This document shows positions 5,618-62,115 of a stretch of 64,000 bases of DNA, in pieces. Source of the stretch: Alopecurus myosuroides (taxonomy: Eukaryota; Streptophyta; Magnoliopsida; Poales; Poaceae); the NCBI GenBank assembly GCA_028641055.1, contig CM054060.1, positions 312,528,949 through 312,592,948 of the forward strand, in the 5' to 3' direction. The first letter of the stretch is position 1, and every line of letters starts with the position of its first letter. The notes below the pieces were generated by a model. It was not told the origin of the DNA. It saw only the letters and a list, made by a program, of their open reading frames with translations, and searched no databases. A program made the translations under genes and the position numbers.

Positions 5618-6140
5618 ATAACCTTTTCTCTCGGCCTTACTACCGGAGATATGTATCTCCCATCTGATTTTTATCAGAGGAGCGCCCACTGATAGACATG
5701 TGAGATTACCTTGGACTAAAAGATACAATGTTCAACTAGACTTTAAATGATTATCTGATATACCCACCAACCTCCCACCTATAAGCATACCCACACTTAC
5801 AAAAGACACGGTAGAAATGTAAGTTTCCACACCGACCTAGCTCATACCTTTCTTAGCTAGTTCTCCTTATAAACCTAGACCCTCGTAGAAACACAACCGG
5901 TCTCGAGACATGGGAGGAGGGTTGGGAGATGACAATCACACAAACTACTACTACGATGGAAATGTGAGGCATTTGGAAATATATCTCTCCAGTAGAGCGT
6001 CTCTATAACTATGTGTTGCAAAGGAGCCGTTGCTTGCTGAATCCTGCATGTGGCCACCATACGCAGAAGACATACGAGATGGCAAAACAATTGAAGGGTT
6101 CCAAGGGGGCACGTAATATCTTGAGCAGCTAGAGGATATA
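5618..6140 (+). repeat. Duplicated block, copy 1
   Basis: This matches 12150-12700 (copy 2) closely and 61675-62115 (copy 3) more distantly, all in the same orientation. Shared landmarks are a ttttctctcggcctta start, a tatgtatctcccatctg stretch, 'ccctcgtagaaacac', and an ATG context around 5910 followed by a segment readable as GNVRHLEI in copy 2. Copy 1 lacks a roughly 30-bp piece present in copy 2 after 'tacgatg', so the frame differs. It may be a duplicated gene 5' region, but no domain is recognised. Confidence 0.6.
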
Positions 6141-7165: not shown

Positions 7166-7170
7166 CTTAT
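7166..7170. other. Target site duplication of the copia element, left copy
   Basis: CTTAT directly abuts the TGTTAG terminus and is repeated at 11857-11861 beyond the right terminus. The paralogous sequence at 61351-61355 has a single CTTAT and no insertion. Confidence 0.9.
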
Positions 7171-7331
7171 TGTTAGAATATATAACCATATTGTATTTGT
7201 ATAGATATATGGTTGTATATGTGTAGTCTGTGTATAACTGTCCGTGTATTGTACGGTACGGACTCTAGCCTTGTACTCCTATATAATGAGCAATACAAGG
7301 CACCACAATGTGTGGTTTCCCTAATCTTACA
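7171..7331 (+). mobile_element. 5' LTR of copia element B
   Basis: This short LTR of 161 bp begins TGTTAGAATA and ends CTTACA, directly followed by a methionine-tRNA-type primer binding site. A TATA-like tatataatga lies at 7280-7289, so bases up to about 7289 are essentially U3 and the rest is R/U5. No direct 3' LTR copy exists. Instead, bases 7171-7289 recur in inverted orientation at 11738-11856. Confidence 0.9.
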
Positions 7332-7343
7332 TGGTATCAGACG
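7332..7343 (+). other. Primer binding site of copia element B
   Basis: TGGTATCAGACG immediately follows the LTR. It matches the initiator-methionine-tRNA primer binding site usual for plant copia elements for its first ten or so bases. Confidence 0.85.
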
Positions 7344-7468
7344 CAAAACCCTAAACCCTAGGCCTGCGCCGCCCCCACCTTCCGCCGCCGCCAGGAGACC
7401 ACCGCCTCCGCGCGCCGTCGCCGCCCGCGTCTCCGCACGCCCGCGCCGCCCGCCGCACCTCCTCTCTG

Positions 7469-10400
7469 ATGTCTCTCTCCGATGACGATGAAGCCGCCAA
7501 GGCCCTCGCAGCAGCCAAGGAGCTCCAGGACGCCACCGACAAGGCCAAGGCCGAGGCCGCGGCCGCCTCCAAGCAGGTCGTCCTGCCCTCCCATGGCGCC
7601 GCCGCCTCCGGGTCGGGCTCGCAGCCCGGATCTTTCTCTCTGACCGCGCTGCATGCCCAGGCCGTCGGCCTCTCCTCCATCAAGGGGCACGTCCCCGTCG
7701 AGCTCGCGCTTGACACCGGCGTTCATCGCCGGTGGCGCACCTTCTTCCGCGCCGCCTGCCGCAAGTACGCCCTCCTGGATCACATCGACGCCGACGCCCC
7801 TGCTGCGCCGACCCCCGAGTGGTCCCTCCTCGACGCCACCGTCGTCTCATGGCTCTATGGGTCCGTCTCGCTCGGTATCCTCGACGCCGTCATGACGCCC
7901 GGTGACGATCCTCTCGCCGTCGCACTCTGGAACAACATCAATGGCCTCTTCAACGACCACAAGATCAACCGTCAGCTCCACCTCACGGCCGAGCTCGGCG
8001 ACGTCAAGATGGGCGAGATGACCATGACCGACTATCTTCAGAAGGTCAAGTCGATCTCCGATGGGCTTGCTGATCTTGGCTCTCCCGTTGATGATGCGGA
8101 GATGGTGATCCATTGCCTCAACGGTCTCCCCGAGCAGTATGAGTCTGCAGCCGATCTCATCTCCCTTATGCCTGGGATCAGCTTCGAAAAGTGCCGCTCG
8201 CTCCTCTCGCTTCAGGATATGAAGCGGAAGAATCGCCGTGCTCGTAACACTGACACGGCGTTCGTCGCCAACACTGGTGCTCCTGCCAAGGGCAAGGGGA
8301 AGAACAAGAAGAAGGGACCTGCTAAAGACGCCGCCAAGGACGCCGCGCCCGCCACGGCGCCACCCGCGCCCTCCGCTGCGCCAACCGCCGCCACCCCTCC
8401 TTCCTGGCCGTCCCCGCAGTACCCCTGGAACGGCGCCATCCAGATGTGGCCCTACGGGGGCCAGGGCGGCATGCTCGGCCGCCACCAGCCCGCCTACGCC
8501 GCGCCTCCCAGCTACGCGCCGCGCCACGCGCCGTCGCCCCAGGCGTTCTACGCCCAGAACCCGTACGGCATCGCCCCGGCTCCTTACGCCTACGGGTACG
8601 CACCCGCTTATGGACACGGTGCCCCAGCATCTCCAGCACCCTCCTCGGCCTCGTGGGATCAGGCTGCGCTGATGAACCAGTTCCAGACTATGGGACTGCA
8701 AGCACCCACCAGGGAGTGGGTGATGGACACCGGCGCCTCCTCGCACTTCGCCTCGGATCCCGGTATGCTCAACTCCGTGTCTCCTCCTTCTCTCTCTCGA
8801 CGTGCTGTCGTTGTCGGTAACGGTTCCACCCTTCCGATCACCGGTACCGGACATGCGCGTTTTCCTATTTCCACTTCTTCTCGTCCTTTGTACCTTCGTA
8901 ATGTCTTAGTTGTTCCTGACATTGTCAAAAATCTCTTGTCTGTTCGTCAGTTCACTGTTGATAATCGTGTTTCCGTCGAATTTGACCCTCTTGGTTTTTC
9001 TGTGAAGGACCTGCAAACCAGGACCGAGATTCTTCGATGCAATAGCTTCGGAGCCCTCTACTCCATCCGCCCTTCATCCACCAGCCGGCCACACGCCCTC
9101 CTCGTTGTTGATTCTGCACTCTGGCATCGTCGGCTTGGGCACCCGGGGCGGCCTGTCATGGAGTCCTTAGCTCGTTCTTCCATTATTCCTAGGGAAAAGA
9201 ATAAAAGTAGCTTGTGTCAGGCTTGTCAATTAGGTCGTCATGTTCGTCTTCCGTTTTCTTCTACCCACCGTGTTACCACTACTCCGTTTCAAATAATTCA
9301 TTGTGATTTGTGGACATCTCCTGTTGAGAGTATTTCTGGCTTTAAATATTATCTCGTGTGTCTCGATGATTTCACTCAGTATGCATGGGTTTATCCTCTG
9401 CGGGCTAAGTCAGAAGTTTTCTCACATCTGTCATCCCTTCACGCACTGGCACTCACCCAGTTTCGTGCGCGCTTACAGGCTATTCAGTGTGACAACGGTC
9501 GTGAGTTCGATAATTCCCTCCTCCATTCTTTTGCCCAAACCCATGGAATTGCACTCCGCTTTTCATGTCCATATACTTCGCAACAGAATGGTAAAGCTGA
9601 ACGCATTATTCGCACTCTTAACGACATTACTCGCACGCTCCTTGTTCAGGCTAGCATGCCGCCTCGCTTCTGGGTTGAGGCACTTCACACAGCCGTTTTG
9701 TTGCATAATCGGCTGCCTTCTAAGGCAATCTCGGATCGTGTTCCCTTCCGTGCTTTACTTGGCGTGGATCCTGCATATGCTGGTCTTCGGGTTTTTGGAT
9801 GTCTTTGCTACCCTAACACCACTGCCGTTGCGTCGCACAAGCTTGCGCCTCGCTCCGTCCCGTGTGTGTTCCTTGGGTATCCATCCCAGCATCATGGCTA
9901 TCGATGCCTTGATCGCTCTACCCAAAAGATTATCATCTCCCGCCATGTCGTGTTCGATGAGTCCACCTTCCCCTTCGCCTCCACTCCATCCTCGTCATCT
10001 ACTACTCCTACTCTGCATACCTATGATTTTTTGCAGGATACTGAGCAGCCGATGCCGTCGATGCCGTTCACCGTGCCCAGCACGGCACCACCCGCAGCGG
10101 ACTCCACTGCAGCACCGCCGACCCCGCCACGGTCACCGTCTCCACGGTCGCCGTCGCCAGCGACCTCGCCACGGCACTCTGCCGCGGCTACGCCGCGCGT
10201 CGACACCCCTGCAGCGGCAGCCTGCCGCTCCCCAGCCACGGCAGCGCCGGCAACGGCCGCGCCAGTGGCTGCACCTTCTGCCGCTGCAGGCGTCCGCGCC
10301 TCCGCTGCGACCCCGCCACCCGCCGCGGCTCCGGCGCCCGTCGCTCCTGGTGCTGCGCCCGCGGCTGCACCACCGCCGCCTCGACGTGTGCGGGACCCGC

Positions 10401-11854
10401 CGCCACCGCCATCTCACACCATGCTCACTCGTGCCAAACGAGGAATTGTGCAGCCCAAGACGATTCTTGATCTTCATGTTGAGGGATTATCTCCAATACC
10501 GAAGACCTATCGTGGTGCTCTCAAGGACCCGAACTGGCACTCAGCCATGGTTGAGGAGTACGGTGCTCTCCTCTCCAACAACACTTGGGACCTCGTTGAT
10601 CCGCCTCGCAATGCTAACATCGTTACTGGCAAGTGGATCTATCGTCACAAGTTGAAGTCTGATGGTTCTTTGGAACGATACAAAGCTCGTTGGGTGCTCC
10701 GTGGATTTACTCAACGCGAAGGTATTGATTTTGATGAAACCTTCAGCCCTGTCGTCAAGCCAGCCACTATTCGCACGGTGCTCTCTCTTGCGTTATCTAG
10801 TGACTGGCCTATTCATCAGCTTGACGTCAAGAATGCGTTCCTCAATGGCACTCTCACTGAGACCGTGTACGCTCGCCAGCCTTCTGGGTTTACTGATCCC
10901 AAGTTCCCTGATAAGGTCTGTCGCCTCAACAAATCTCTCTATGGTTTAAAGCAGGCGCCTCGGGCATGGTTTCAACGGTTTGCCTCGTTCCTTGCATCAG
11001 TTGGGTTTATTGGCTCCAAGTCCGACAGCTCCTTGTTTGTCTATCGGCGCGGCGCTGACATGGCCTATCTTCTGCTCTATGTGGATGACATCATCCTGAC
11101 TGCGTCCTCCTCAGCATTGTTGCACAGTTTGATTGCCTCTCTCCGTACTGAGTTCAGTATGACGGACATGGGCGATCTCCATTATTTTCTGGGCATCTCT
11201 GTGACACGCAGCAAGGACAGTCTGTTCCTCTCGCAGGAGAAGTATGCATTGGACCTTCTTGACAGAGCTGGCATGTTACAGTGCAAATCCATCTCTACTC
11301 CAGTTGATACTGCTTCCAAACTTTCAGCCAAGTCCAGTGATCCTGTTGCAGACCCAACCGAGTATCGCAGCATTGCAGGCGGTCTTCAGTACCTCACGTT
11401 TACTCGGCCAGACATCTCTTATGCCGTGCAGCAGATTTGTCTCCATATGCATGATCCTCGGGCTAATCATTTGCTTCTTGTCAAGCGTGTTCTTCGCTAC
11501 ATCCGCGGCACCACAGACTATGGTCTCACCTTGTTCCGACGCAGCTCACACAAGTTGACGGCCTATTCTGACGCTGATTGGGCTGGTTGCCCAGACACAC
11601 GACGGTCTACCTCAGGCTACTGTGTCTATCTCGGCGCTAATCTGGTGTCATGGTCTGCTAAGCGGCAGCACACGGTCTCTCGGTCCAGCGCCGAGGCTGA
11701 GTACAGGGCGGTTGCAAATGTGGTGGCTGAAACTTGTTCATTATATAGGAGTACAAGGCTAGAGTCCGTACCGTACAATACACGGACAGTTATACACAGA
11801 CTACACATATACAACCATATATCTATACAAATACAATATGGTTATATATTCTAA
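7469..11854 (+). CDS. Copia gag-pol polyprotein, RNase H truncated
   Basis: This 1461-residue frame encodes the polyprotein of a Ty1/copia element. In order it has a UBN2-type gag (about residues 60-260), a Lys-rich then Ala/Pro-rich linker, an aspartic protease with MDTGASSHFAS near residue 418, and a gag_pre-integrase zinc-binding segment near 550-590. Then come an integrase core with acidic residues in IHCDLW (about 612), QCDNGREF (about 675) and GKAERI (about 710), a long Pro/Ala linker, reverse transcriptase with DVKNAFLNG (about 1120) and YVDDI (about 1205), and the start of RNase H with SDADWAG (about 1368) and SAEAEYRA. I see no CCHC zinc knuckle in gag. The last roughly 40 residues are translated inverted LTR, so RNase H lacks its later catalytic Asp region. 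This copy therefore cannot be fully autonomous. Confidence 0.93.
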   Translation: MSLSDDDEAAKALAAAKELQDATDKAKAEAAAASKQVVLPSHGAAASGSGSQPGSFSLTALHAQAVGLSSIKGHVPVELALDTGVHRRWRTFFRAACRKYALLDHIDADAPAAPTPEWSLLDATVVSWLYGSVSLGILDAVMTPGDDPLAVALWNNINGLFNDHKINRQLHLTAELGDVKMGEMTMTDYLQKVKSISDGLADLGSPVDDAEMVIHCLNGLPEQYESAADLISLMPGISFEKCRSLLSLQDMKRKNRRARNTDTAFVANTGAPAKGKGKNKKKGPAKDAAKDAAPATAPPAPSAAPTAATPPSWPSPQYPWNGAIQMWPYGGQGGMLGRHQPAYAAPPSYAPRHAPSPQAFYAQNPYGIAPAPYAYGYAPAYGHGAPASPAPSSASWDQAALMNQFQTMGLQAPTREWVMDTGASSHFASDPGMLNSVSPPSLSRRAVVVGNGSTLPITGTGHARFPISTSSRPLYLRNVLVVPDIVKNLLSVRQFTVDNRVSVEFDPLGFSVKDLQTRTEILRCNSFGALYSIRPSSTSRPHALLVVDSALWHRRLGHPGRPVMESLARSSIIPREKNKSSLCQACQLGRHVRLPFSSTHRVTTTPFQIIHCDLWTSPVESISGFKYYLVCLDDFTQYAWVYPLRAKSEVFSHLSSLHALALTQFRARLQAIQCDNGREFDNSLLHSFAQTHGIALRFSCPYTSQQNGKAERIIRTLNDITRTLLVQASMPPRFWVEALHTAVLLHNRLPSKAISDRVPFRALLGVDPAYAGLRVFGCLCYPNTTAVASHKLAPRSVPCVFLGYPSQHHGYRCLDRSTQKIIISRHVVFDESTFPFASTPSSSSTTPTLHTYDFLQDTEQPMPSMPFTVPSTAPPAADSTAAPPTPPRSPSPRSPSPATSPRHSAAATPRVDTPAAAACRSPATAAPATAAPVAAPSAAAGVRASAATPPPAAAPAPVAPGAAPAAAPPPPRRVRDPPPPPSHTMLTRAKRGIVQPKTILDLHVEGLSPIPKTYRGALKDPNWHSAMVEEYGALLSNNTWDLVDPPRNANIVTGKWIYRHKLKSDGSLERYKARWVLRGFTQREGIDFDETFSPVVKPATIRTVLSLALSSDWPIHQLDVKNAFLNGTLTETVYARQPSGFTDPKFPDKVCRLNKSLYGLKQAPRAWFQRFASFLASVGFIGSKSDSSLFVYRRGADMAYLLLYVDDIILTASSSALLHSLIASLRTEFSMTDMGDLHYFLGISVTRSKDSLFLSQEKYALDLLDRAGMLQCKSISTPVDTASKLSAKSSDPVADPTEYRSIAGGLQYLTFTRPDISYAVQQICLHMHDPRANHLLLVKRVLRYIRGTTDYGLTLFRRSSHKLTAYSDADWAGCPDTRRSTSGYCVYLGANLVSWSAKRQHTVSRSSAEAEYRAVANVVAETCSLYRSTRLESVPYNTRTVIHRLHIYNHISIQIQYGYIF

Positions 11855-11856
11855 CA
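11738..11856 (-). repeat. Inverted copy of the first 119 bp of the copia LTR
   Basis: These 119 bases are the perfect reverse complement of 7171-7289 by eye. They join the RNase H coding sequence at about 11737, stop at the TATA-like element on the inner side, and end flush with the U3 terminus and target duplication on the outer side. Confidence 0.95.
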
Positions 11857-12149
11857 CTTATCATAATTCTAAATGGGGTAAGGTGCATTTTCTTACCAAA
11901 AACCTATTTCTCAGTCCTCGATCCAGCCTAGCCACGCTTTTAATCGCGAATTCTAAGTGCAGCTTGCGATGTGTACCTATGGAATACTCCTTAACTTGGA
12001 GTGCGGTCGTGTGAAACCATATTAAGCTCTAGGGGGGGGGGGGGGGGGGGGGTCACTACAGAGTGTATAATTTATGACTTACTGTAGTTTCTTTTGAGAT
12101 ATCTCCCTGCTGGCACACGTTCTAAAGTACATATTGTATCTTCCAGACG
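11857..12149. other. Right target duplication and flank, with G homopolymer
   Basis: CTTAT at 11857-11861 is the right target duplication. The following sequence continues the pre-insertion locus and resembles 61356-61670. A run of about 22 G at 12031-12052 is a likely length-error site. No gene is seen. Confidence 0.6.
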
Positions 12150-12740
12150 AACACAACCTTTTCTCTCGGCCTTACCCTATCATTCCGGAGATATGTATCT
12201 CCCATCTAGTTTTTATCAGAGGAGCGCCCACTGATAGACATGTGAGATTACTTTGTACTAAAAGATACACTGTTCCACTAGACTTTAAATGATTATCTGA
12301 TGTACCCACCAACCTTCCACCTCTAAGCATACCCACACTTATAAAAGACACGGTGTAAAAGAAAGTTTCCACGCCGGCCTAGCTCAGACCTTTCTTAGCT
12401 AGTTCTCCTTATAAACCTAGACCCTCGTAGAAACACGACCGGTCTCGAGACATGGGGGGAGGGGTGGGAGATGACAACCACACAAACTGTTACTATGATT
12501 TAGACATGCGCTTGCAGAAGGTTGGAAATGTGAGGCATCTGGAAATACATCCCTCCACTACATCGTCTCTATCACTATGTGTTAGAAAGGAGGCGTTGCT
12601 TTCTGCCTTTGGCCGCCATATGCATAAGACATACAAGATGGCAAATCAAGTGAAGCGTTCCAAGGGAAAAAGTAATATCTTGAAAAGCAAGAGGATCCGG
12701 TGTCTTTCCGCAGACGGCTTTGAGGTTCCCAGCAACGAAA
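12150..12740 (+). repeat. Duplicated block, copy 2, with a possible coding segment
   Basis: This is homologous to 5618-6140 and 61675-62115. It holds a 138-codon ORF from ATG 12452 to 12868. Its middle (GNVRHLEIHPS, then a basic stretch) has counterparts in the other copies, including GNVGHLEVYPS in copy 3, which hints at an ancestral coding exon. The end of the ORF runs into unrelated AT-rich sequence. I do not recognise the family, and copies 1 and 3 do not keep the whole frame, so this is at best a gene remnant. Confidence 0.45.
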
Positions 12741-16639: not shown

Positions 16640-17480
16640 GTGTGGATGGTTCTAACCAGGCAGATTGTACTATCTATGAAAAACTCGACATTTTCGTACA
16701 TAAATTTTCAAACCGGCAAGACGCAGGCCTGCGAGGCCACATTGGTTCGAGAACAGAAGTGGGCAATGATTCGACGGGGAAGATGATAAGAATGCATGGC
16801 GTGATGGTCGGAGGCAAGGTATTAGCTTGCATTGAAAAAAACACCATCGAGCTGGTCTAAAGGTTGGGTCATCCTCCGCGTTGCTCCACATATAGTTCAT
16901 CTTAAGAAATTTGATCTCCCAAAGCTAGCAAGTGTTTAAGGCACAATGAAATTTCCCCATGAGGCAGAGATTGAGGTTGCCATCATTCTTGTTGACGGTT
17001 CGGTAGATGAGATTGAAATCTTTTAGGATGAGCCATTTGGAATCATCTCCATTGGAGTTGCGCCAGTGGCTTCATCTAGGAAACACTTATTTTCAAGGTG
17101 AGTGCCTAGCGAGTAAAGAATTGTGATCTTGAAAGAAGCGTTGCAAATTCTTATGACGATACCACCGAAATAAGATGAGTGCCAATAGGAATGCTGACGA
17201 TATCGACGTGATCATTGTCCCATAATCAGATGTACCACCCATGGTGCGTGGGCCAGAGAGAAGCTGAAATCCAACAATATAACCAACAATATGATGATCG
17301 ATAAAGTCAAGCTTAGTTTCCTAAAAGAACCCATGTGACAGGTGGTTTGGACGATCGTCACATTATTTGTATATTTTTTTAGCTCGTCCATTAAGACCTC
17401 TCACGTTCTAGCACAAGATACCGTGGATCAGACCTAACATAAAAACTTGGAAGCGGCCAACAAAACATAGAATAAGCAAT
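16640..17480 (-). pseudogene. LINE endonuclease remnant, copy A
   Basis: This is a second, separate LINE endonuclease fragment on the minus strand. It encodes an ETKLDFIDHH segment at about 17295-17325, a WLILKDFNLIYR segment at about 17010-17045, and MNYMWSN followed by a Phe-rich piece at 16670-16900. Because it has its own copies of motifs also found at 16.2 and 15.9 kb, it is not part of copy B. The segment from 17148 upward is the left end of the 1.3-kb tandem unit, so its N-terminal part recurs at 18453 and 19759. Confidence 0.7.
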
Positions 17481-17540
17481 GCTGACAGCGACAATGGAAT
17501 GATCGCAGACATAAGCTTGAAGGGGGCACCTTACCATATA

Positions 17541-17648
17541 CTTTCTCCGTCTCATATTAACATAAAAACTCTTAATAACAGATGTATCTAACATTAAATA
17601 CATCCATATACATTCGCTTTTATGACGGTTAATATAAGATGGAGGGAG
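17541..17648. mobile_element. Stowaway-like MITE (type 1, copy 1)
   Basis: TA-flanked 108-bp element with terminal inverted repeats based on CTTTCTCCGTCTCATATTAA and its counterpart ending agatggagggag. Non-coding; presumably mobilised by a Tc1/mariner transposase. Confidence 0.8.
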
Positions 17649-17807
17649 TACTATTTCTTGAGGATTTCCTGTCAGTAGTTAAATCATACTTTGATCGGAT
17701 ACTCAATGGCAATAGCACATTAGATCCTAAGTTATTTAACTTCTGGTATTGTTCAAGGACTCGGTAAAATGGGAAATAAGTTAAATTTGTTGGGATACTA
17801 AATCATA

Positions 17808-17928
17808 CTCCCTCCATTCCAAAATACATGACTTCCATTTATCCAAATATGGATGAATGTAGATATGTTTTAGTGTATAACATGTATATTTGGACAAACG
17901 GAAGTCGTGTATTTTGGAACGGAGCGAG
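17808..17928. mobile_element. Stowaway-like MITE (type 2, copy 1)
   Basis: TA-flanked 121-bp element starting CTCCCTCCATTCCAAAATA, with an almost fully palindromic body ending ggaacggagcgag. Confidence 0.85.
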
Positions 17929-18096
17929 TACATCAAAGCGTATATGATCCCTCTTAAAAGAGCAGCAAAGTACGGAGTTAAATACATCAACGGTGCGTGT
18001 ACTTGTCGTCTTAGCCCGCCTTGATCACCGTACTTAGAAATACGTTGTTTGCGGTCACTATATACAGATCAGAAGCCCAGCAACGATCACTGGCAC

Positions 18097-18402
18097 GAGT
18101 ATAGCGTCGTATTGTTCAATGTGGCGAAATTGCGTAACATGGCTTGTTTTGAAGGAAAACTTATAACATCTCATGTTGAGATGGTTTTATATATGTGTCT
18201 TTCTTCGTTGTTTGGCAGGGCTGCAGTCGGAGACTGATAAGAAGATGATAGTTGAAGTGGCAGACAAGATCCAGAACCTGGCGATCTGTGCGTACGAGGC
18301 CACGTCTTCTAGGGCGTCAACCAGATCACATCCAGCTCGGGATGACGATGAAGACGAAGTGATCTCCCGTTTCATGCTTTTGGATTTTGAAGTTAAGTCT
18401 TT
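18097..18402 (+). pseudogene. Exon-like segment of unknown gene, tandem copy 1
   Basis: A segment with ATG 18139 is followed by a pyrimidine-rich tract and an acceptor-like tttggcag ending at 18218. An open stretch then encodes a charged peptide containing DKKMIVEVADKIQ and an acidic DDDEDE cluster, running to about 18400. The same segment in copies 2 and 3 keeps most residues, which argues that it was once coding. I do not recognise the family. A partner 5' exon and a 3' end are not visible, so it is probably a gene fragment. Confidence 0.4.
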
Positions 18403-18442
18403 TTTGGGGTGTGATCCACCCCCTCCCCCCCCCCCCTCAGCT

Positions 18443-18468
18443 ATCATCATAAGAATTCTTATGACGAT
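18443..18468. repeat. Near-perfect palindrome at unit 1/2 junction
   Basis: A 26-bp inverted repeat centred on GAATTC spans the junction between tandem copies 1 and 2, with one mismatched pair. It follows a C-rich tract (18420-18436). Confidence 0.85.
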
Positions 18469-18848
18469 ACCACCGAAATAAGATGAGTGCCAATATGAAT
18501 GTTGGCGATATCGACGTGATCATTGTCCCATAATCAGAGGATACCACCCCTGGTGCGTGGGCCAGAGAGAAGCTGAAATCCAACAATATAACAACAATGT
18601 GATGATCGATAAAGTGAAGCTTAGTTTCCTAAAAACAACCCATGTGACAGGTGGTTTGGACGATCGTCACATGATTTGTATATTTTTTAGCTCGTCCATT
18701 AAGACCTCGCATGTTCTAGCACAAGATACCGTGGATCATACCTAACATAAAAACTTGGAAGCGGCCAACAAAACATAGAATGAGCAATGATGACAGCGAC
18801 ACTGGAATGAGCGTAGACATAAGCTTGAAGGGGGCACCTTACCATATA

Positions 18849-18960
18849 CTTTCTCCGTCCCATATTAACTTCCATAAAAACTCTTAATAACAGATGTATC
18901 TAACATTAGATACATCCATATACATTCGCTTTTATGACGGTTAATATGAGATGGAGGGAG
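18849..18960. mobile_element. Stowaway-like MITE (type 1, copy 2)
   Basis: TA-flanked counterpart of 17541-17648, carried along in the tandem unit. Confidence 0.8.
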
Positions 18961-19118
18961 TACTATTTCTTGAGGATTTCCTGTCAGTAGTTAATCATAC
19001 TTTGATCTGATACTCAATGGTAATATCACATTAGATCCTAAGTTATTTAACTTCTGGTATTGTTCAAGGACTCGGTAAAATGGGAAATAAGTTAAATTTG
19101 TTGGGATACTAAATCATA

Positions 19119-19239
19119 CTCTCTCCATTTCAAAATACATGACTTCCATTTATCCGAATATGGATGAATGTAGATATGTTTTAGTGTATAATATGTATAT
19201 ATAGACAAACGGAAGTCATGTGTTTTGGAACAGAGCGAG
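19119..19239. mobile_element. Stowaway-like MITE (type 2, copy 2)
   Basis: TA-flanked counterpart of 17808-17928. Confidence 0.8.
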
Positions 19240-19419
19240 TACAACAAAGCGCATATGATCCCTCATAAAAGAGCATCAAAGTACGGAGTTAAATACATCA
19301 ACGGTGCATGTACTTGTTGTCTTAGCCCGCCTTGATCACCGTACTTAGAAATACGTTGTTCGCGGTCACTATATACAGATCAGAGGCCCAGCGACGATCA
19401 CTGGCACGAGTATAGCATC

Positions 19420-19647
19420 GTATTTGTCAATGTGGCAAAATTGCGTAACATGGCTTGTTTTGAAGGCAAACTTATAACATCTCATGTTGAGATGGTTTGT
19501 TATATGTGTGTCTTTCTTCGTTATTTGGCAGGATTGCAGTCGGAGGCTGATAAAAAGATGATAGTTGAAGGGGCAGACAAGATCCAGAACGTGGCGATCT
19601 GTGCGTATGAAGCCACGTCTTCTAGGGCGTCAACAGATCACATCTAG
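19420..19647 (+). pseudogene. Exon-like segment of unknown gene, tandem copy 2
   Basis: Counterpart of 18097-18402, with an acceptor-like ttatttggcag ending at 19531 and the ADKKMIVEGADKIQ segment. The frame is cut at 19647 by a single-base deletion. Confidence 0.4.
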
Positions 19648-19746
19648 CTTGGGATGACGATGAAGACGAAGTGATCTCCCGTTTCATGCTTTTGGATTTT
19701 GAAGTTAAGTCTTTTTTGGGTGTGATCCCCCCCCCCCCCCTCAGCT

Positions 19747-19772
19747 ATCATCATAAGAATTCTTATGATGAT
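19747..19772. repeat. Perfect 26-bp palindrome at unit 2/3 junction
   Basis: A perfect 26-bp inverted repeat centred on GAATTC sits exactly where tandem copy 2 joins copy 3 and immediately follows the poly-C tract. It combines the end of one unit with the start of the next. Confidence 0.95.
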
Positions 19773-20154
19773 TCCACCGAAATAAGATGAGTGCCAATAC
19801 GAATGTTGGTGATATCGACGTGATCATTGTCCCATAACCAGAGGATACCACCCCATGTGTGTGGGCCAAAGAGAGAAGCCGAAAGCCAACAATATAACCA
19901 ACAATATGATGATCGATAAAGTCGAGCTTAGTTTCCTGAAAACAACCCATGTGACAAGTGGTATGGACGATCATCACATGATTTGTATACTTTTAGCTCG
20001 TCCATTAAGACCTCTCACGTTCTAGCACAAGATACAGAGGATCAGACCTAACATAAAAACTTGGAAGCGGCCAACAAAACATAGAATAGGAATTGATGAC
20101 AGCGACAGTGGAATAAGCGTAGACATAAGCTTGAAGGGGGCACCATACCGTATA

Positions 20155-20266
20155 CTTTCTCCGTCTCATATTAACTTTCATAAAAACTCTTAATAACAGA
20201 TGTATCTAATATTAAATACATCCAGATACATTCGCTTTTATGACGGTTAATATGAGATGGAGGGAG
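20155..20266. mobile_element. Stowaway-like MITE (type 1, copy 3)
   Basis: TA-flanked counterpart of 17541-17648. Confidence 0.8.
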
Positions 20267-20422
20267 TACTATTTCTTGAGGATTTCCTGTCATTAGTTAA
20301 TCATACTTTGATCTGATACTCAATGGCAATAGCACATTAGATCCTAAGTTATTTAACTTCTGGTATTGTTCAAGGACTCGGTAAAATGGGAAATAAGTTA
20401 AATTTGTTGGGACTAAATCATA

Positions 20423-20543
20423 CTCTCTCCATTTCAAAATACATGACTTCCATTTATCCGAATATGGATGAATGTAGATATGTTTTAGTGTATAATATGT
20501 ATATTTAGACAAACTTAAGTCATGTGTTTTGGAACAGAGAGAG
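20423..20543. mobile_element. Stowaway-like MITE (type 2, copy 3)
   Basis: TA-flanked counterpart of 17808-17928. Confidence 0.8.
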
Positions 20544-20664
20544 TACATCAAAGCGCACCTGATCCCTCATAAAAGAGCAGCAAAGTACGAAGTTAAATAC
20601 ATCAACGGTCCATGTACTTGTCGTCTTAGCCCGCCTTGATCAACGTACTTAGAAACACGTTGTT

Positions 20665-23600
20665 CGTCGCACCCGGACTTCTAGGGGATACTCACAGTCC
20701 GTTAAACAGTAGATAAATGGTTTACGGGGCATACCGGCACCCGCATCTCAATATGAGCAGGCCAACACGTAAACGTGTGACAACCATTCTCTTACTATTC
20801 ATCGTCTGCGCAAACCATCCCATAGAAATCCAGATACTTCCATTGACGTACTTCAAAACATACACACATGGTACGTCAACGGCATTGGAACAAGTGATAT
20901 CACAACAGATCTCTACGACACAAAAGATGGAAATAAGTTGCAAATGGCTCTCACTAGAGCAGAGATAGCAAATACAATCATCCAGAGGACACATGTCCCA
21001 ACAATTCATCATTACATCACAGCGGAAGCATCCAAAGTGTCTGAGTACAGACAAGATCCAAATAGGCCTAAGAGGCCGGAAACGAAAAAACGGAGCCCAT
21101 CCACGAAGTCTCGGATCCTGCCCGGGTCCGCTATCTACTCGTCAGCAGCCTCGTCATACTCCACGTAGTAGCCACCATGGGGATCCTCGGAAACGTAGCC
21201 TGCGGAAACCACAGCCCCAAATGGGTCAGTACATAAACGTACTGGCAAGCAAGACTCACAGTTCACCAAAGTGTACCCGTCAACACCAAGCACAGATGCT
21301 TTGGGTTCAACGGAAGAAAAGGGGTGATACAAAAGATGCGGCAGCTGGCTGCACTAACCAACTACAGAACATGCTACAACTTCCGGATAACAGAAAGGAG
21401 ATAAGATAGCGTATCGTAACCAACTACAACTAACCACCAAACAAACCCACCCTGGATCTCGCCCCTTATCCAAAGAAGCAATCCGAGGATAACTCACACA
21501 GTTGGATTAATGATGGTTCAAGTTATTGTGTCGATAAAACTATTACTAATCAAGTTATCATTAGTTAGGTGTAGGTTGTTCTGAGTACTTGTTAGCCAGT
21601 ACTTTCACCAAGTCATCCATAACCGCGGAAAACACGGCTTCTCGAGAAGATTTAACCCTGCAGGGGTGCACCAATTTGGCCGTACACGTAAGAATAACCC
21701 GCCAGATGGAATGGCCTTTCCACCAAGCGGGGCACTCAACACAACTCAACTCTTCTTCGCATCAAGCCCAAAGAACCCCGTGCAATTGAGCGCACGGCTA
21801 ATCAAGCCCCACGAAGAAAAGGGGACCCTCATAGCACTCTAAGAACGTGTCTCCCTAAATGCCGACTACAAAAGTTCCACCCTGGCCTGGGTTCGCAAGA
21901 CCATGCATGCGGCAAATGGAAAACCCGAACTAAATGAGGCGATTTGGACGAGATGCGAATCGAGTCAAATTGAGGGGGGCGCCCATACACGCTTCCCACA
22001 TGCGGTTAGTGCGCTCATCATGGATCAGTAGACAAGACCCTTTTCCTAATTAGGGTCGACACTAGCAGGCCTCAAAACCACGCTGGGCCTCCTGCCGGTG
22101 CCTTATCATCAAATTATTATTAACCACAACATTAACAGGTTGATTGTTTAAACATCGAGCCCCGGAACATAATAAAATAGTAACAGAAAGAAACGGACAA
22201 CAGGCTCGAGCAAAACAACCCTAAGCATGCTAGTAAGACACGAGCAACAAGCAATGGGGTTATAGGTGTGGAGGTGAGGCTATATCAGGGTTAAAGGATA
22301 ACATGTGATAGGATCGAACAGAAGCAACTATTCGTAGGGCTAGCAGAATAGACAACGGAAAGTATCGGTATCCAATGTTGAAAGGAACACAATGGTTCAT
22401 GTGAGTGAATACTTTCCTGCAAGCTCAGCAGCCTGGTACTGAGCTAACTCCTCAGTAGGGGTATCGTAAGTATCGTCCGTCTCAACGTCGTCGTTTATCC
22501 GAGAAGAAGCAAACAAACAACGTAGAGAGACAAACAATCAATAACATGGCATAGTGCACAAACATGGGATGATGCATGACCATTTAATTGATGCATCAAA
22601 AATAAGATAATTGACATGGTAACATAACAGGATTAAATGGACCCACATGCAATTTGGATTGCATATGGAAAGCCCAGGAATTATGGTTGAATTAAATGAT
22701 CTACAACTAAACAACATGTGTAAGTGAATTAGCATGATGCATGGATGAGGAAAACAGAAAGAAAACAACCTTAAGTGCAATTTGAAATAAGGTTTACCCA
22801 GTTTGGAATTTTAGTTATTAAGTTATGAAATTTTGGTTTCTTAAAGATATTACTCAAGCATTTGTTGTTTTTACCAATTTTAATTGTTCAAAATAAATAA
22901 CAAAGTTCACCTTTGAAAAGAGCACAAAGTTTTAGGTGGAATACATGTTTCAATTATTGAAAAAGGAATTAAGATGAATTAATTAGGAATTAAACAAGTT
23001 TAAACAAGATTTAATTGAATTTAATTCAAGTTTGAATTTAATTGAATTTTTATTTGTGCAAAACATTAAGTGAGATTCATATTTGAAAACTTTATACTTT
23101 TATGGTTTGAAAACATATTTTATAGTTTAAAAAATAATTTAATTTGAGCAAGTTATGAATTTAGCAATGTTAAATGATTTAAACAAGGTTTAAATCATTT
23201 AACCAATTTTAATTATTCAAAACATGAAACAAAGTTTATATTTGAAAAGGTGGTTCAATTTAGCATGAAAAACATATTTTATTTGTTGAAAATGGATTTA
23301 AAATGAGCAAGTTATTAATTTGACAATTTTAAATGCATTAATCAAGAAACAGTTGTTTTCAGCAATTTAAATTATTCAAAACAGCAAACAAAATTGATAT
23401 TTGCAAAGTACATGAAAAATGGGATGGAAAACATATTTTATTTTTTGAATTTGGAATTTTTATGCCCAAGTTATGAATTTTGCAAAATTAAGTGAATTAA
23501 ACAAGTTTTCAAATATTTCACCAGTTTAAATTATTCAAAACAGTAAACAAAATTTATATTTAGGTAGAGCATTTAAAATGGAGTGGTTTACATGTTTAAA

Positions 23601-25542
23601 GTTTTGCAATTTGAGTTTCCAAACAAAAGTTATTAAATTACCAAGTTTAAGCATTTTTATGGTTTATAGAAATAATTATGGACCTAGAAAAACTATAGGG
23701 ACTTGGAAAGAAAATAACAGGGACCTAGATAAATGCTAGGAGGGACCTAGAAAGAACTAGCAAGGACTGATCTGTGATTAGGTAATTGTTCTGGCTGTGA
23801 AAAATAAAATGGAAAAGGTTGGTTAAACCGCGGGGGGGGGGGGGGGATTCGGACCCACGATCTCTGCTTGCGCGCAGTGGACAGCAACCACTGCGGTGGT
23901 GTTCTTTTTGGTGACAGAAAGGGGCATCGGGGGGGTTAAGGTTCAGGTACGGGAGTTAACTGAACTGAACGAAAGTTCAGTTAGCGCACGCGACAGAGAA
24001 AAAGGGGCAGCGATCCACGGCGGCGACCTGCGCTGCTGCTGCGTGGTGGCTGCTCGTGGCGATGCGTGCGGGTGTGCCCGTGACGGTGCGGATGATGCTA
24101 GGAGACATACAGAAGAGAGGGAGGAAGGGCGAGGGGGATGCTCACCTCTCAGACGAAAAACACCAGGCGCTCGGAGCAGGGGTGGTCGCCGGCGAACCCT
24201 GGACGGCGGCGGCGACTCGGTCCTTCCCCGTCCGCGCCGAGGGGTGGAGGATGACGAGGGAGGCGAGGGGAACCCATTCCCGTACTCGCCCTGGCCGGTG
24301 GGTGGCCCAAACGGCGGCGATCGCCGGGGTGAAAGGTGGTGGGGCTCGGGTGTTGTTGGGGTTCAGTTACAGAGACAGAGAGGAGGTGGCGCTCGGGGAG
24401 AGAAAGAAGGAGAGCTTGGCGGCAGCAGGCGAGGGAGAGAGGAGGGAGAGGGGTAGAGGGGAGCCTAGGGCTAGGGTTCGAGCTATAAGGGGGAGGTGAG
24501 CGAGCTGCAGCCGTTGCTGCTCCTTCTCTGTCAACGTGGACAGGTTGGATGGCAGCCGTACGAGGAAGAAGAAAGGTAAGGGGGTATGGGCCTGGGGAGA
24601 GGTGGTGGGCTGGGCCTGCTAGCCTGCCCCTCTCTCCCTTTGGTTTGCTTTTATTTTTTTCTTTTTTTTCTTTTTTTTTTGCAGATTTGAATAGGGAAGA
24701 AAAGGTTAGTTGTTTAGGTTAGAAAATTTTAGAAAAAATTTGTCATAGGTTATTTAGGGTAACATCAACAATTGCCAACTTTTGTTTTACAAAATATTTC
24801 AAATTATTTGCTGATTTGAAAAAGGGAAGAAAAACTAGTTCTTTAGGGTTAGAAATTTTAGGGATAATTTTTGTATAGTTTAATTTTGGTAACAGCAACA
24901 TTGTGTAACTTTTATTTTCAAGAAAAAATTGAATTATGGTGTTGTTTGTAAATTTAATTGAATTTAAATAATTTTGTTATTAGATGAATAAGGGTGACAT
25001 TAAGCAATTTAAAAGCTTTTGAATTCAAGTTTAGTTGAAACAAAGGATTGAGTTGTTTTATAATTTTCATAAGTTTCAACATGGTTGCTGTTTGAAAAAT
25101 GTAATTGAATTTTGAATGAAATTTGAGTTAAGTGAGTTATTGAAAGCCATAATTTTAAATAGTTTGAACCTCATGGTTTAATGGAAACAAATGATGGAAG
25201 TGTTTTGTCATTTTCATAATTTTCAAAAGGGTTGTTGTTTTGGAAATTAATTGAATTTGAAAATGGTTTGGTATTAGATGAAATATTGATTAGAAACAAA
25301 TCAATAGTTTTGAAATTACAACTTTAATGGAAACAAATAATTGTTTTGATTTGAATATTCCTTTTGAAAATTGTAACATCACAAGTATGAAACAAAAGGT
25401 TTGAAATTTGGTTTGAAATTCAAATAGAAAACAAAGGAAAACAAAGCAAAACAAATGCAATGAACATGATGTCATGATGCAAAACATAAAATAACAAAGA
25501 GCAAACATTCTAATGGCTATTTTTCATACTTGGGATGTTACA
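20665..25542 (-). mobile_element. 3' LTR of element C
   Basis: This copy is 4,878 bp. On the plus strand it runs from CGTCGCACCC (the first T of the expected TGTCGCACCC changed to C) to GGGATGTTACA. It contains an AT-rich middle (22.8-23.7 kb), a G homopolymer at 23833-23846, a GC-rich block (24.0-24.5 kb) and a second AT-rich part. ORFs inside it, such as 20993-21409 and 24056-24499, are duplicated in the other LTR and show no known domain. Confidence 0.92.
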
Positions 25543-26371
25543 AAACGCCCCCCCTTGAAGGAATCGCGCCCCGAGATTCCTACTGATAAAATAAAAGGTC
25601 CGGATACTTCTTGCGAAGATCCTCTTGAGCTGTGACACGTGAAACACATCGTGCACCTCGCATAGTTTTTCTGGAAGTTCAAGACGATAGGCATTCCTGG
25701 CACTCTTCTGGAAAGACGTCAGGGAATTCGCAAACCACCGGAACATTTTCAAGTAAAGGGAGAGGTTTTGTATTGAGGGTGTATAGCTGGATAGAACTTG
25801 ATTCATTTGGAGAATAGACTATCTGGCCAGAAGGGTGGAACAGAGTTATTGATTAGACGCCGGTAGAAGAACTGAATTGGAAAGCAACAACAAGGTTTCA
25901 ATGGACGAAAATGATGTTGAGAAGAACAGGATATCGAAGCAACATCGGGAAAACACGAGACCAAAACACTCCTGAGGTACTACGGAAAAACCCATCCGGG
26001 CTTCTAAAGGATCAATATCTACTGCTTAAGGAATAGAGGATCTGCTTCCGGGGCTTACACGCCTCCGTTCTCAATCGTGAGTAGGCAACATGATAAATCA
26101 TGTCACAACCACCTCCAATCCTATGGTCTAGTAGATATAACCATCCTAGAGAAACCAGGATACGTGAAATCCTAACTTGAAAGTTTAGGTGAGAAAAGAA
26201 AACAACGTTGCACTTCCTTACCAAAAAAGGGAGGGTGGGTGGGGAAAGAAATAAAAGGGCAGAATTCCTACTCTCACGTTTCATTTTTCCTATATAGCTA
26301 CAAAATAGTTTCTAGACTCAACTGCGACCAGTAAAAAGGGATCCTACAGGAAGACAGGCTCTGATACCATT
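25543..26371 (-). other. Internal region of element C: PPT, integrase tail remnant, PBS
   Basis: From right to left on the minus strand there is a primer binding site TGGTATCAGAGCC (26357-26369), then a 90-codon ORF without recognised domain (26012-26284). Next comes a fragment at 25510-25806 with AYRLELPEKLCEVHDVFHVS, a hallmark of the gypsy integrase C-terminus ahead of the chromodomain-like end. A polypurine tract (caaggggggggcg, 25546-25558) abuts the 3' LTR. Everything between gag and integrase has been lost. Confidence 0.85.
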
Positions 26372-29300
26372 TGTCGCACCCGGACTTCTAGGGGATACTC
26401 ACAGTCCGTTAAACAGTAGATAAATGGCTTACGGGGCATACCGGCACCCGCATCTCAATATGAGCAGGCCAACACGTAAACGTGTGACAACCATTCTCTT
26501 ACTATTCATCGTCTGCGCAAACCATCCCATAGAAATCCAGATACTTCCATTGACGTACTTCAAAACATACACACATGGTACGTCAACGGCATTGGAACAA
26601 GTGATATCACAACAGATCTCTACGACACAAAAGATGGAAATAAGTTGCAAATGGCTCTCACTAGAGCAGAGATAGCAAATACAATCATCCAGAGGACACA
26701 TGTCCCAACAATTCATCATTACATCACGGCGGAAGCATCCAAAGTGTCTGAGTACAGCCAAGATCCAAATAGGCCTAAGAGGCCGGAAACGAAAAAACGG
26801 AGCCCATCCACGAAGTCTCGGATCCTGCCCGGGTCCGCTATCTACTCGTCAGCAGCCTCATCATACTCCACGTAGTAGCCACCATGGGGATCCTCGGAAA
26901 CGTAGTCTGCGGAAACCACAGCCCCAAAGGGGTCAGTACATAAACGTACTGGCAAGCAAGACTCACAGTTCACCAAAGTGTACCCGTCAACACCAAGCAC
27001 AGATGCTTTGGGTTCAACGGAAGAAAAGGGGTGATACAAAAGATGCGGCAGCTGGCTGCACTAACCAACTACAGAACATGCTACAACTTCCGGATAACAG
27101 AAAGGAGATAAGATAGCGTATCGTAACCAACTACAACTAACCACCAAACAAACCCACCCTGGATCTCGCCCCTTATCCAAAGAAGCAATCCGAGGATAAC
27201 TCACACAGTTGGATTAATGATGGTTCAAGTTATTGTGTCGATAAAACTATTACTAATCAAGTTATCATTAGTTAGGTGTAAGTTGTTCTGAGTACTTGTT
27301 AGCCAGTACTTTCACCAAGTCATCCATAACCGCGGAAAACACGGCTTCTCGAGAAGATTTAACCCTGCAGGGGTGCACCAATTTGGCCGTACACGTAAGA
27401 ATAGCCCGCCAGATGGAATGGCCTTTCCACCAAGCGGGGCACTCAACACAACTCAACTCTTCTTCGCATCAAGCCCAAAGAACCCCATGCAATTGAGCGC
27501 ACGGCCAATCAAGCCCCACGAAGAAAAGGGGACCCTCATAGCACTCTAAGAACGTGTCTCCCTAAATGCCGACTACAAAAGTTCCACCCTGACCTGGGTT
27601 CGCAAGATCATGCATGCGGCAAATGGAAAACCCGAACTAAATGAGGCGATTTGGACGAGATGCGAATCGAGTCAAATTGAGGGGGGCGCCCATACACGCT
27701 TCCCACAAGCGGTTAGTGCGCTCATCATGGATCAGTAGACAAGACCCTTTTCCTAATTAGGGTCGACACTAGCAGGCCTCAAAACCACGCTGGGCCTCCT
27801 GCCGGTGCCTTATCATCAAATTATTATTAACCACAACATTAACAGGTTGATTGTTTAAACATCGAGCCCCGGAACATAATAAAATAGTAACAGAAAGTAA
27901 TGGACAACAGACTCGAGCAAAACAACCCTAAGCATGCTAGTAAGACACGAGCAACAAGCAATGGGGTTATAGGTGTGGAGGTGAGGCTATATCAGGGTTA
28001 AAGGATAACATGTGATAGGATCGAACAGAAGCAACTATTCGTAGGGCTAGCAGAATAGACAACGGAAAGTATCGGTATCCAATGTTGAAAGGAACACAAT
28101 GGTTCATGTGAGTGAATACTTGCCTGCAAGCTCAGCAGCCTGGTACTGAGCTAAGTCCTCAGTAGGGGTATCGTAAGTATCGTCTGTCTCAACGTCGTCG
28201 TTTATCCGAGAAGAAGCAAACAAACAGCGCAGAGAGACAAACAATCAATAACATGGCATAGTGCACAAACATGGGATGATGCATGACCATTTAATTGATG
28301 CATCAAAAATAAGATAATTGACATGGTAACATAACAGGATTAAATGGACCCACATGCAATTTGGATTGCATATGGAAAGCCCATGAATTATGGTTGAATT
28401 AAATGATCTACAACTAAACAACATGTGTAAGTGAATTAGCATGATGCATGGATGAGGAAAACAGAAAGAAAACAATCTTAAGTGCAATTTGAAATAAGGT
28501 TTACCCAGTTTGGAATTTTATTTATTAAGTTATGAAATTTTGGTTTCTTAAAGATATTACTCAAGCATTTGTTGTTTTTACCAATTTTATTTGTTCAAAA
28601 TAAATAACAAAGTTCACCTTTGAAAAGAGCACAAAGTTTTAGGTGGAATACATGTTTCAATTATTGAAAAAGGAATTAAGATGAATTAATTAGGAATTAA
28701 ACAAGTTTAAACAAGATTTAATTGAATTTAATTCAAGTTTGAATTTAATTGAATTTTTATTTGTGCAAAACATTAAGTGAGATTCATATTTGAAAAGTTT
28801 ATATTTTTATGGTTTGAAAACATATTTTATAGTTTAAAAAATAATTTAATTTGAGCAAGTTATGAATTTAGCAATGTTAAATGATTTAAACAAGGTTTAA
28901 ATCATTTAACCAATTTTAATTATTCAAAACATGAAACAAAGTTTATATTTGAAAAGGTGGTTCAATTTAGCATGGAAAACATATTTTATTTGTTGAAAAT
29001 GGATTTAAAATGAGCAAGTTATTAATTTGACAATTTTAAATGCATTAATCAAGAAACAGTTGTTTTCAGCAATTTAAATTATTCAAAACAGCAAACAAAA
29101 TTGATATTTGCAAAGTGCATGAAAAATGGGATGAAAAACATATTTTATTTGTTGAATTTGGAATTTTTATGCCCAAGTTATGAATTTTGCAAAATTAAGT
29201 GAATTAAACAAGTTTTCAAATATTTCACCAGTTTAAATTATTCAAAACAGTAAAAAAAAATTATATTTAGGTAGAGCATTTAAAATGGAGTGGTTTACAT

Positions 29301-31239
29301 GTTTAAAGTTTTGCAATTTGAGTTTCCAAACAAAAGTTATTAAATTACCAAGTTTAAGCATTTTTATGGTTTATAGAAATAACTGTGGACCTAGAAAAAC
29401 TACAGGGACTTGGAAAGAAAATAACAGGGACCTAGATAAATGCTAGCAGGGACCTAGAAAGAACTAGCAAGGACTGATCTGTGATTAGGTAATTGTTCTG
29501 GTTGTGAAAAATAAAATGGAAAAGGCTGGTTAAACCGGGGGGGGGATTCGAACCCACGATCTCTGCTTGCGCGCAGTGGACAGCAACCACTGCGGTGGTG
29601 TTCTGTTTGGTGACAGAAAGGGGCATCGGGGGGGTTAAGGTTCAGGTACGGGAGTTAACTGAACTGAACGAAAGTTCAGTTAGCGCACGCGACAGAGAAA
29701 AAGGGGCAGCGATCCACGGCGGCGACCTGCGCTGCTGCTGCGTGGTGGCTGCTCGTGGCGATGCATGCGGGTGTGCCCGTGACGGTGCGGATGATGCTAG
29801 GGGACATACAGAAGAGAGGGAGGAAGGGCGAGGGGGATGCTCACCTCTCTGACGAAAAACACCAGGCGCTCGGAGCAGGGGTGGTCGCCGGCGAACACTG
29901 GACGGCGGCGGCGACTCGGTCCTTCCCCGTCCGCGCCGAGGGGTGGAGGATGACGAGGGAGGCGAGGGGAACCCATTCCCGTACTAGCCCTGGCCGGTGG
30001 GTGGCCCAAACGGCGGCGATCGCCGGGGTGAAAGGTGGTGGGGCTCGGGTGTTGCTTGGGTTCAGTTACAGAGACAGAGAGGAGGTGGCGCTCGGGGAGA
30101 GAAAGAAGGAGAGCTTGGCGGCGGCAGGCGAGGGAGAGAGGAGGGAGAGGGGTAGAGGGGAGCCTAGGGCTAGGGTTCGAGCTATAAGGGGGAGGTGAGC
30201 GAGCTGCAGCCGTTGCTGCTCCTTCTCTGTCAACGTGGACAGGTTGGATGGCAGCTGTACGAGGAAGAAGAAAGGTAAGGGGGTATGGGCCTGGGGAGAG
30301 GTGGTGGGCTGGGCCTGCTGGCCTGCCCCTCTCTCCCTTTGGTTTGCTTTTATTTTTTTATTTTTTTTCTTTTTTTTTGCAGATTTGAATAGGGAAGAAA
30401 AGGTTAGTTGTTTAGGTTAGAAAATTTTAGAAAAAATTTGTTATAGGTTATTTAGGGTAACATCAACAATTGCCAACTTTTGTTTTACAAAATATTTCAA
30501 ATTATTTGCTGATTTGAAAAAGGGAAGAAAAACTAGTTCTTTAGGGTTAGAAATTTTAGGGATAATTTTTGTATAGTTTAATTTTGGTAACAGCAACATT
30601 GTGTAACTTTTATTTTCAAGAAAAATTGAATTATGGTGCTGTTTGTAAATTTAATTGAATTTAAATAATTTTGATATTAGATGAATAAGGGTGACATTAA
30701 GCAATTTAAAAGCTTTTGAATTCAAGTTTAGTTGAAACAAAGGATTGAGTTGTTTTATAATTTTCATAAGTTTCAACATGGTTGCTGTTTGAAAAATGTA
30801 ATTGAATTTTGAATGAAATTTGAGTTAAGTGAGTTATTGAAAGCCATAATTTTAAATAGTTTGAACCTCATGGTTTAATGGAAACAAATGATGGAAGTGT
30901 TTTGTCATTTTCATAATTTTCAAAAGGGTTGCTGTTTTGGAAATTAATTGAATTTGAAAATGGTTTGGTATTAGATGAAATATTGATTAGAAACAAATCA
31001 ATAGTTTTGAAATTACAACTTTAATGGAAACAAATAATTGTTTTGATTTGAATATTCCTTTTGAAAATTGTAACATCACAAGTATGAAACAAAAGGTTTG
31101 AAATTTGGTTTGAAATTCAAATAGAAAACAAAGCAAAACAAAGCAAAACAAATGCAATGAACATGATGTCATGATGCAAAACATAAAATAACAAAGAGCA
31201 AACATTCTAATGGCTATTTTTCATACTTGGGATGTTACA
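26372..31239 (-). mobile_element. 5' LTR of element C
   Basis: This copy is 4,868 bp, from TGTCGCACCC to GGGATGTTACA on the plus strand (TGTAACATCCC...GGGTGCGACA on the minus strand), and is nearly identical to 20665-25542. It is followed directly by the TTGTT target duplication and the rest of tandem unit 3. Confidence 0.93.
29536..29600 (-). other. tRNA-like patch in the LTR
   Basis: On the minus strand a TGC/GCA stem with a short loop is followed by GGGTTCGAATCCCC (about 29542-29556), which fits the T-arm and B box of a tRNA. The counterpart in the other LTR (about 23843-23905) has a mutated B box. No complete acceptor stem or D arm is visible, so it is not called as a tRNA gene. Confidence 0.35.
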
Positions 31240-61674: not shown

Positions 61675-62115
61675 CAGCCTTATCCTTATCCTTTAGGAGA
61701 TATTTATCTATCCCCCTTTTTTTTAATCAGAGGAGCCAACAATGATGAGTTGTAACAAATAATATGATATTATTTTGTACATGAAGATATGATTATCAAC
61801 TCGGATTGGCTAATTTACCCACCAACTTCGTGTCCCTTAGCATACCCACATTTATAAAATTCATGGTACAAATACATGTTTTGCGTGATGGCTTAGCTCA
61901 ATATATACCATGTGTTTTGCAATCTTCCTCCTATAGCTAGTGGCGTATCTATATTAGCTAGCTCTCCTTACAAATCAAGAAGCCTACAAAGAAAGATGAA
62001 CACAGTCGAGACCTGGGAAGAAGAGAGAAATAACAATGACATAAACTACTATGGTCCATACACATTCTTGCATAATATTGGAAATGTGGGACATCTGGAA
62101 GTATATCCCTCCTTT
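61675..62115 (+). repeat. Duplicated block, copy 3
   Basis: Distant homologue of 5618-6140 and 12150-12740. A 71-codon ORF (61912-62127) includes GNVGHLEVYPS, matching GNVRHLEIHPS of copy 2. The possible start in copy 3 is ATG 61996, in a gagacctggg context matching gagacatggg in copies 1 and 2. No full gene is seen. Confidence 0.5.

Follow-up and report, generated by a model that had tools for sequence, protein, structure and literature searches.

Inverted terminal copies in defective retroviral DNA were reportedly explained by Olsen and Swanstrom in 1985 as the outcome of switching on strong-stop or displaced DNA. That material is said to have been cloned unintegrated viral DNA, unlike the integrated copy with a target duplication that is described here. 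In grass LTR retrotransposons, an abnormal structure enclosed by a single 5-bp duplication has led to the inference of aberrant template switching for complex insertions of the elements Angela, Squiq and Opie; in the passages available, the product is a dimer in direct orientation that contains three LTRs (Sabot and Schulman, 2007, PMC1950507). Misalignment and template switching have also been invoked for HIV-1 proviruses whose LTRs are asymmetric and whose ends are therefore unequal; the available passages of that work mention a few proviruses with genomic inversions, describe a model in which one LTR has a deletion, in direct orientation, and do not mention an inverted U3 end (PMC9278108). 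Inverted terminal repeats are a feature of DIRS-1, which the passages available describe as a tyrosine recombinase element (PMC5633606).

In this study, a single copia element with an abnormal right end was analyzed at positions 7171-11856 of a 64,000-nt stretch of DNA (the window), together with its family in the source genome. The element resembles the insertions of Sabot and Schulman in that it is a grass LTR retrotransposon with one duplication around an abnormal structure. However, it does not have three direct LTRs and two internal regions; it has one LTR and one inverted U3, so that its right end is of opposite polarity and the element terminates in U3 on either side. The inverted orientation of U3 likewise separates it from the HIV-1 model. 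Inverted terminal repeats are shared with DIRS-1, whereas the family of the window element has an integrase of the copia type, a 5-bp duplication and, at 16 of its 19 young loci, direct LTRs. Among the listed titles and abstract openings of the open-licence literature, none concerned an LTR retrotransposon that combines an inverted U3 end with a target duplication. We regard the window element as a variant of the known template-switch insertions, of which the inverted two-U3 form is new.

Structure of the element and its junction

The reading frame of the element is uninterrupted from 7469 to 11854 and crosses the junction into the inverted U3 (Table 1). Pfam profiles, scanned over three pieces, follow in the order PF14223; PF22936, PF13976, PF00665 and PF25597; and PF07727, and these matches represent copia gag, gag-pre-integrase, integrase core and RVT_2. 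Copia gag and integrase lie upstream of the RVT_2 reverse transcriptase, which is the Ty1/copia order; RNase H was placed via the relative P0001 and not via Pfam. No recombinase family is among the Pfam matches of the frame, and the rve integrase core is present. A protein search gave two close relatives, on ena and jgi contigs (95% and 93%), both of which have the RNase H tail; no DNA homologues of the family were found in viral_contigs or genome_contigs. The primer-binding site at 7332 is present, and we take it to be of the initiator-Met tRNA type, while the polypurine tract (PPT) has been lost. The 5-bp target duplication of Ty1/copia elements is found (CTTAT); their two direct LTRs are not, the right end being an inverted U3.

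Table 1. Positions of the parts of the element in the window.
Feature	Position	Strand	Remark
Left target-site duplication, CTTAT	7166..7170	.	
Left LTR, 161 nt, TGTTAG...CTTACA	7171..7331	+	
U3 part, LTR 1-119, inverted duplicate at right end	7171..7289	+	119/119 nt
LTR 119-142, putative acceptor site	7289..7312	+	LTR 128-137 in predicted duplex with 11719-11728; -12.9 kcal/mol
Primer-binding site, TGGTATCAGA	7332..7341	+	
Open gag-pol frame, copia gag to first part of RNase H	7469..11737	+	101 3' codons missing
Putative donor end, TGTGGTG (11719-11725) and terminal TTGTT	11719..11738	+	Similar to reverse complement of LTR 119-137
Inverted U3, LTR 119 to 1, right terminus	11738..11856	-	
Right target-site duplication, CTTAT	11857..11861	.	

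The sequence-only reading that preceded this analysis had described the right terminus as the perfect reverse complement of LTR bases 1-119, joined directly to RNase H coding sequence, and the match of 11738-11856 to 7171-7289 is indeed exact at all 119 nucleotides. A repeat finder returned the same inverted pair as 123 nt at 99%; the window has six inverted pairs of 60 nt or more, and none of the other five is as long or as exact. The pol frame is cut inside RNase H at the join with the inverted U3, where there is no filler; T11738 is common to both sides, so that the inverted arm is 118 or 119 nt long. Relative to an intact family copy, exactly 303 nt are missing from the junction to the start of the 3' U3, corresponding to 101 RNase H codons, and the right arm contains neither R nor U5. 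The exact 24-base junction has a single match in the genome, and the window contains no N bases. The two further statements of that reading, that both termini carry the same TGTTAG end and that CTTAT duplications enclose the whole structure, agree with the exact U3 ends and with the duplicates immediately outside them. By arithmetic, a 5-bp duplication would arise by chance alone in 1 of 1,024 cases, and the exact 119-nt inverted end is not a product of chance.

A TATA-like motif is located at LTR 110-117, with its mirror at 11740. A start site is expected approximately 25-30 nt past such a motif. Since the right arm ends at LTR 119, just past the motif, it is probably not the whole U3.

The family in the source genome

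The genome (3.57 Gb) was searched with the first 42 U3 bases, allowing up to three mismatches, a pattern that family copies lacking these bases escape. U3 starts were found at 41 places, against none in a reversed control; by position and orientation, 39 of these places belong to 19 young loci and the other two are older relatives, at C3:219.77 and C5:348.72 Mb. Ordinary copies with direct LTRs make up 16 of the young loci. In all 16 the PPT GAGGGAGGG precedes the 3' LTR and the 5-bp duplications on the two sides match; the LTRs of one, C3:204, are 18.3 kb apart, presumably owing to a nested insertion. The other three young loci are the window element, C1:466.4 Mb and C1:704.8 Mb.

Among the 32 LTRs of the ordinary loci, 24 match the window LTR at all 161 positions and the remaining eight differ from it by one or two bases. 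Over a slice of approximately 1.35 kb, which was compared with 15 other loci (14 ordinary loci and C1:466, with C3:204 and C1:605 left out), the window element shows no substitutions against C1:38 and C4:219 and two to seven against the other 12 ordinary copies compared. We conclude that the window insertion is a very recent one of a Ty1/copia element of approximately 5 kb. Its left flank is single-copy in the genome, and no empty site was found in the genome search, which covered this flank. A repeat occurs on either side of the element (5620-6137 and 12155-12696, 84% over 549 aligned columns), with weaker relatives at 61573-62112. It was considered as an empty paralogous site and rejected, as the insertion point is not covered by the alignment.

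Two further young copies are odd. At C1:466.4 Mb (C1:466395562-466400577), ACTAT stands before the 5' LTR and again directly after approximately base 134 of the 3' LTR, and this copy seems to have integrated with its last ~25 nt missing. C1:704.8 Mb (C1:704826890-704836697) is an inverted dimer whose outer ends are both U3. It consists of a left LTR followed by sequence up to RNase H, 85 nt of filler, an inverted LTR from base 143, an inverted PPT and an inverted copy that runs to its LTR. The outer flanks of the dimer (TAATT and CACAC) show no target duplication, so that it is not a clean second case. All but 6 nt of the filler are exact pieces of the element, namely 22 nt of minus polarity followed by 11, 9, 12, 17 and 14 nt of plus polarity. 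BLAST gave E values of 4e-8 for the 22-nt, 4e-5 for the 17-nt and 0.002 for the 14-nt piece, and the shorter ones could be due to chance.

Both halves of the dimer have the same 12-nt insertion class and nine substitutions relative to the window, and one substitution common to them (10076) is absent from the other 16 copies compared, the window included. The halves differ in 41 indel columns present in one half only and in ten aligned substitutions, seven of which are beside gaps; BLAST mismatches between them number four. The raw slice distance between them is 15, and the distance of each half to C1:466 is smaller (12 and 5), a non-pairing that we ascribe to shifted columns near indels. The locus may represent a dimer that arose in reverse transcription and was inserted in an abnormal way; alternatively, a deletion may have joined two insertions. 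The odd breaks of the three copies, at LTR 119, ~134 and 143, are too few to define a hotspot.

Homology at the join

At the join, the family sequence reads ...GAAACTTGT before and TGGTTACGG after the breakpoint, and the LTR complement reads ...TATTGC and TCATTATA. Immediately upstream, TTGT(T) stands against TTGC(T), with one G-T wobble, and further back TGTGGTG matches with a shift of 1 nt; directly at the join, 1 nt overlaps exactly, or 5 nt if one G-T wobble is admitted. An alignment of the RNase H plus strand onto the LTR, anchored at the join, has a score of 7. This score is reached by four of 2,100 other nascent positions and, among 131 LTR positions, only by the real one. Random pairs attain it in 9 of 12,000 cases, and pairs constrained to an equal last base and an unequal next base in 7 of 8,000.

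The duplex between the last 24 nt and LTR 119-142 was calculated as -12.9 kcal/mol with DNA parameters, which marks the best site in the whole LTR, and none of the 4,175 other 24-mers of the element reaches this value. The predicted pairs lie 10-20 nt before the join (11719-11728 with LTR 128-137) and exclude the terminal bases. Thirteen of 137 LTR windows reach -12.9 kcal/mol, and the five among those listed start at offsets 114 to 123, around the real site. In the mirror direction, in which U3 DNA would prime on RNase H sequence, the real family DNA gave a score of 2, which 1,448 of 10,000 random pairs reach, and a duplex of -4.6, which 738 of 1,506 random cases equal or better; when degenerate codons were used to set an upper bound, the score was 6 and the mean 5.7. 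The homology is one-sided and the mirror direction is at background, and therefore the RNase H plus strand most likely acted as primer on the plus-strand LTR. These tests, which were picked after the junction had been seen and concern one junction and hence one event, are support and not proof.

Origin of the two-U3 form

The element's structure and duplication, the make-up of its family and the side on which the homology lies are observed; from them we infer a switch of the growing plus strand to plus-strand U3 DNA, followed by insertion of the resulting two-U3 cDNA by integrase. This account, in which reverse transcription went wrong, is reasonably probable. The growing plus strand would have reached RNase H and left its minus-strand template, and its last ~20 bases would have annealed to plus-strand LTR DNA (LTR 119-138). 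It would then have been extended leftward through U3 until it ran off at the 5' end of the template, U3 base 1; plus-strand strong-stop DNA, which starts at this base, would be the simplest template. Completion of the second strand would yield a linear cDNA terminated by U3 on both sides, and the joining of both U3 ends to the target by integrase would produce the usual 5-bp duplication. Candidate acceptors are strong-stop DNA, a folded-back part of the same strand and a sister LTR, which are indistinguishable because their U3 sequences are identical, and the extension may have been carried out by reverse transcriptase or, alternatively, by a host polymerase.

That integrase inserted a cDNA with two U3 ends, as the sequence-only reading had proposed, is supported by the U3 base 1 at both ends, by a duplication like that of all 16 ordinary copies and by the unique, filler-free junction. 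The direction of the route suggested there is favoured over the mirror direction (score 7 versus 2); strong-stop DNA is a candidate template and reverse transcriptase a candidate enzyme. The outermost U3 end (TGTTAGAATA) agrees with the U5 end (TGTAAGATTA) at eight of ten positions. Retroviral att sites are described, in the passages available, as imperfect inverted repeats that are necessary and sufficient for integration (PMC12789967). Since the U3 and U5 ends are near-identical inverted repeats, integration through two U3 ends is biochemically unsurprising; as a natural product it is unusual, and the presence of the exact form in one of 19 young loci counts against the switch of the plus strand. 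The 1-nt exact overlap at the join, the missing target duplication of C1:704.8 Mb and the fact that no empty site was found around the single-copy left flank also speak against it, and the location of the predicted duplex upstream of the terminal bases lowers its probability slightly.

A truncated cDNA and a U3 piece might instead have been joined by host end joining, of the NHEJ or polymerase-theta type, before integrase acted. A broken cDNA would suffice for this, the duplication and the two U3 ends would be accounted for equally well, and microhomology-mediated joining could use the same pairing that is observed at the junction. However, homology upstream of the join is not expected from plain NHEJ. 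Had the longest microhomology (TGTGGTG) been used, the junction should lie at that point and not ~13 nt further, and an intact outermost U3 end would need luck, so that we consider end joining unlikely. The priming may also be reversed: plus-strand U3 DNA ending at base 119 would have initiated minus-strand synthesis on RNA at RNase H, with the same product, but with the score and duplex at background described above this route is very improbable. Autointegration was rejected by reasoning, as it would give circles or inversions with U5 and the right arm has neither R nor U5. The copying of an already inverted source was also rejected; the join is unique in the genome, and such a copy would be without 3' R and PPT.

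Later rearrangement offers other routes to the same ends. If a two-U3 inverted dimer had been integrated, a later deletion could have removed the centre of the palindrome and all but 119 bp of its right arm. Large palindromes are unstable, a dimer of this kind is known in the family (C1:704.8 Mb), and the same ends and duplication would be expected; yet two steps are needed although there are no substitutions in the 119-nt arms or in the slice against two sister copies, and the sole dimer seen has no target duplication, which makes this history quite improbable. Two neighbouring insertions of opposite orientation, followed by a deletion between them, would resemble C1:704.8 Mb, with its opposite copies, filler and unmatched flanks. 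In the window, however, matching flanks would then be a coincidence (1 in 1,024), neighbours are unlikely with 19 young loci per 3.57 Gb, and the join has homology and no filler, and we give this scenario very little weight. Young identical copies invite misassembly, and the many single-base indels in the C1:704.8 region resemble uncorrected read errors; but an assembly or read chimera would not be expected to have CTTAT on both sides and an end at U3 base 1, the window is without N, and both the left flank and the junction are unique. A chimera is accordingly most unlikely.

Consequences

Without 3' R and PPT, the window copy should be a dead end. A possible consequence of the inverted U3, on the evidence of its motifs, is a second, inward-facing promoter. 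In a broader and more tentative reading, which we consider doubtful, plus-strand synthesis in this family would repeatedly flip onto plus-sense templates: DNA starting at U3 base 1 would lead to a compact two-U3 cDNA, as in the window, and DNA continuing past the PPT to an inverted dimer, as at C1:704.8 Mb. The integrase of this recently active copia family would accept U3-U3 molecules in vivo, and the compact product, with an inward TATA-like motif in the U3 at each end, could give sense and antisense RNA and be a natural trigger of silencing for its own family. Repeated flipping is made less likely by the raw slice distances, which fail to pair the halves of C1:704.8 Mb.

If the switch of the plus strand is correct, the window element would document, as a natural case, the joining of two U3 ends by integrase in a single event in vivo. 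It would also record a plus-to-plus strand switch, the direction of which is apparent from the homology at its junction. Genome sequence could then be used to test the order of events in plus-strand synthesis of plant copia elements. Copies of this kind would escape LTR finders that look for two direct LTRs and, if both inward U3 promoters work, one such copy could silence the family.

The window contains further repeats. A direct duplication of ~4.9 kb (20663-25542 and 26370-31239) is 98.6% identical and holds 159-bp tandem units, and 17117-20596 consists of three tandem units of ~1.3 kb that are 64-95% alike in the parts listed. In the right flank of the element, 12032-12052 is a run of 21 G.
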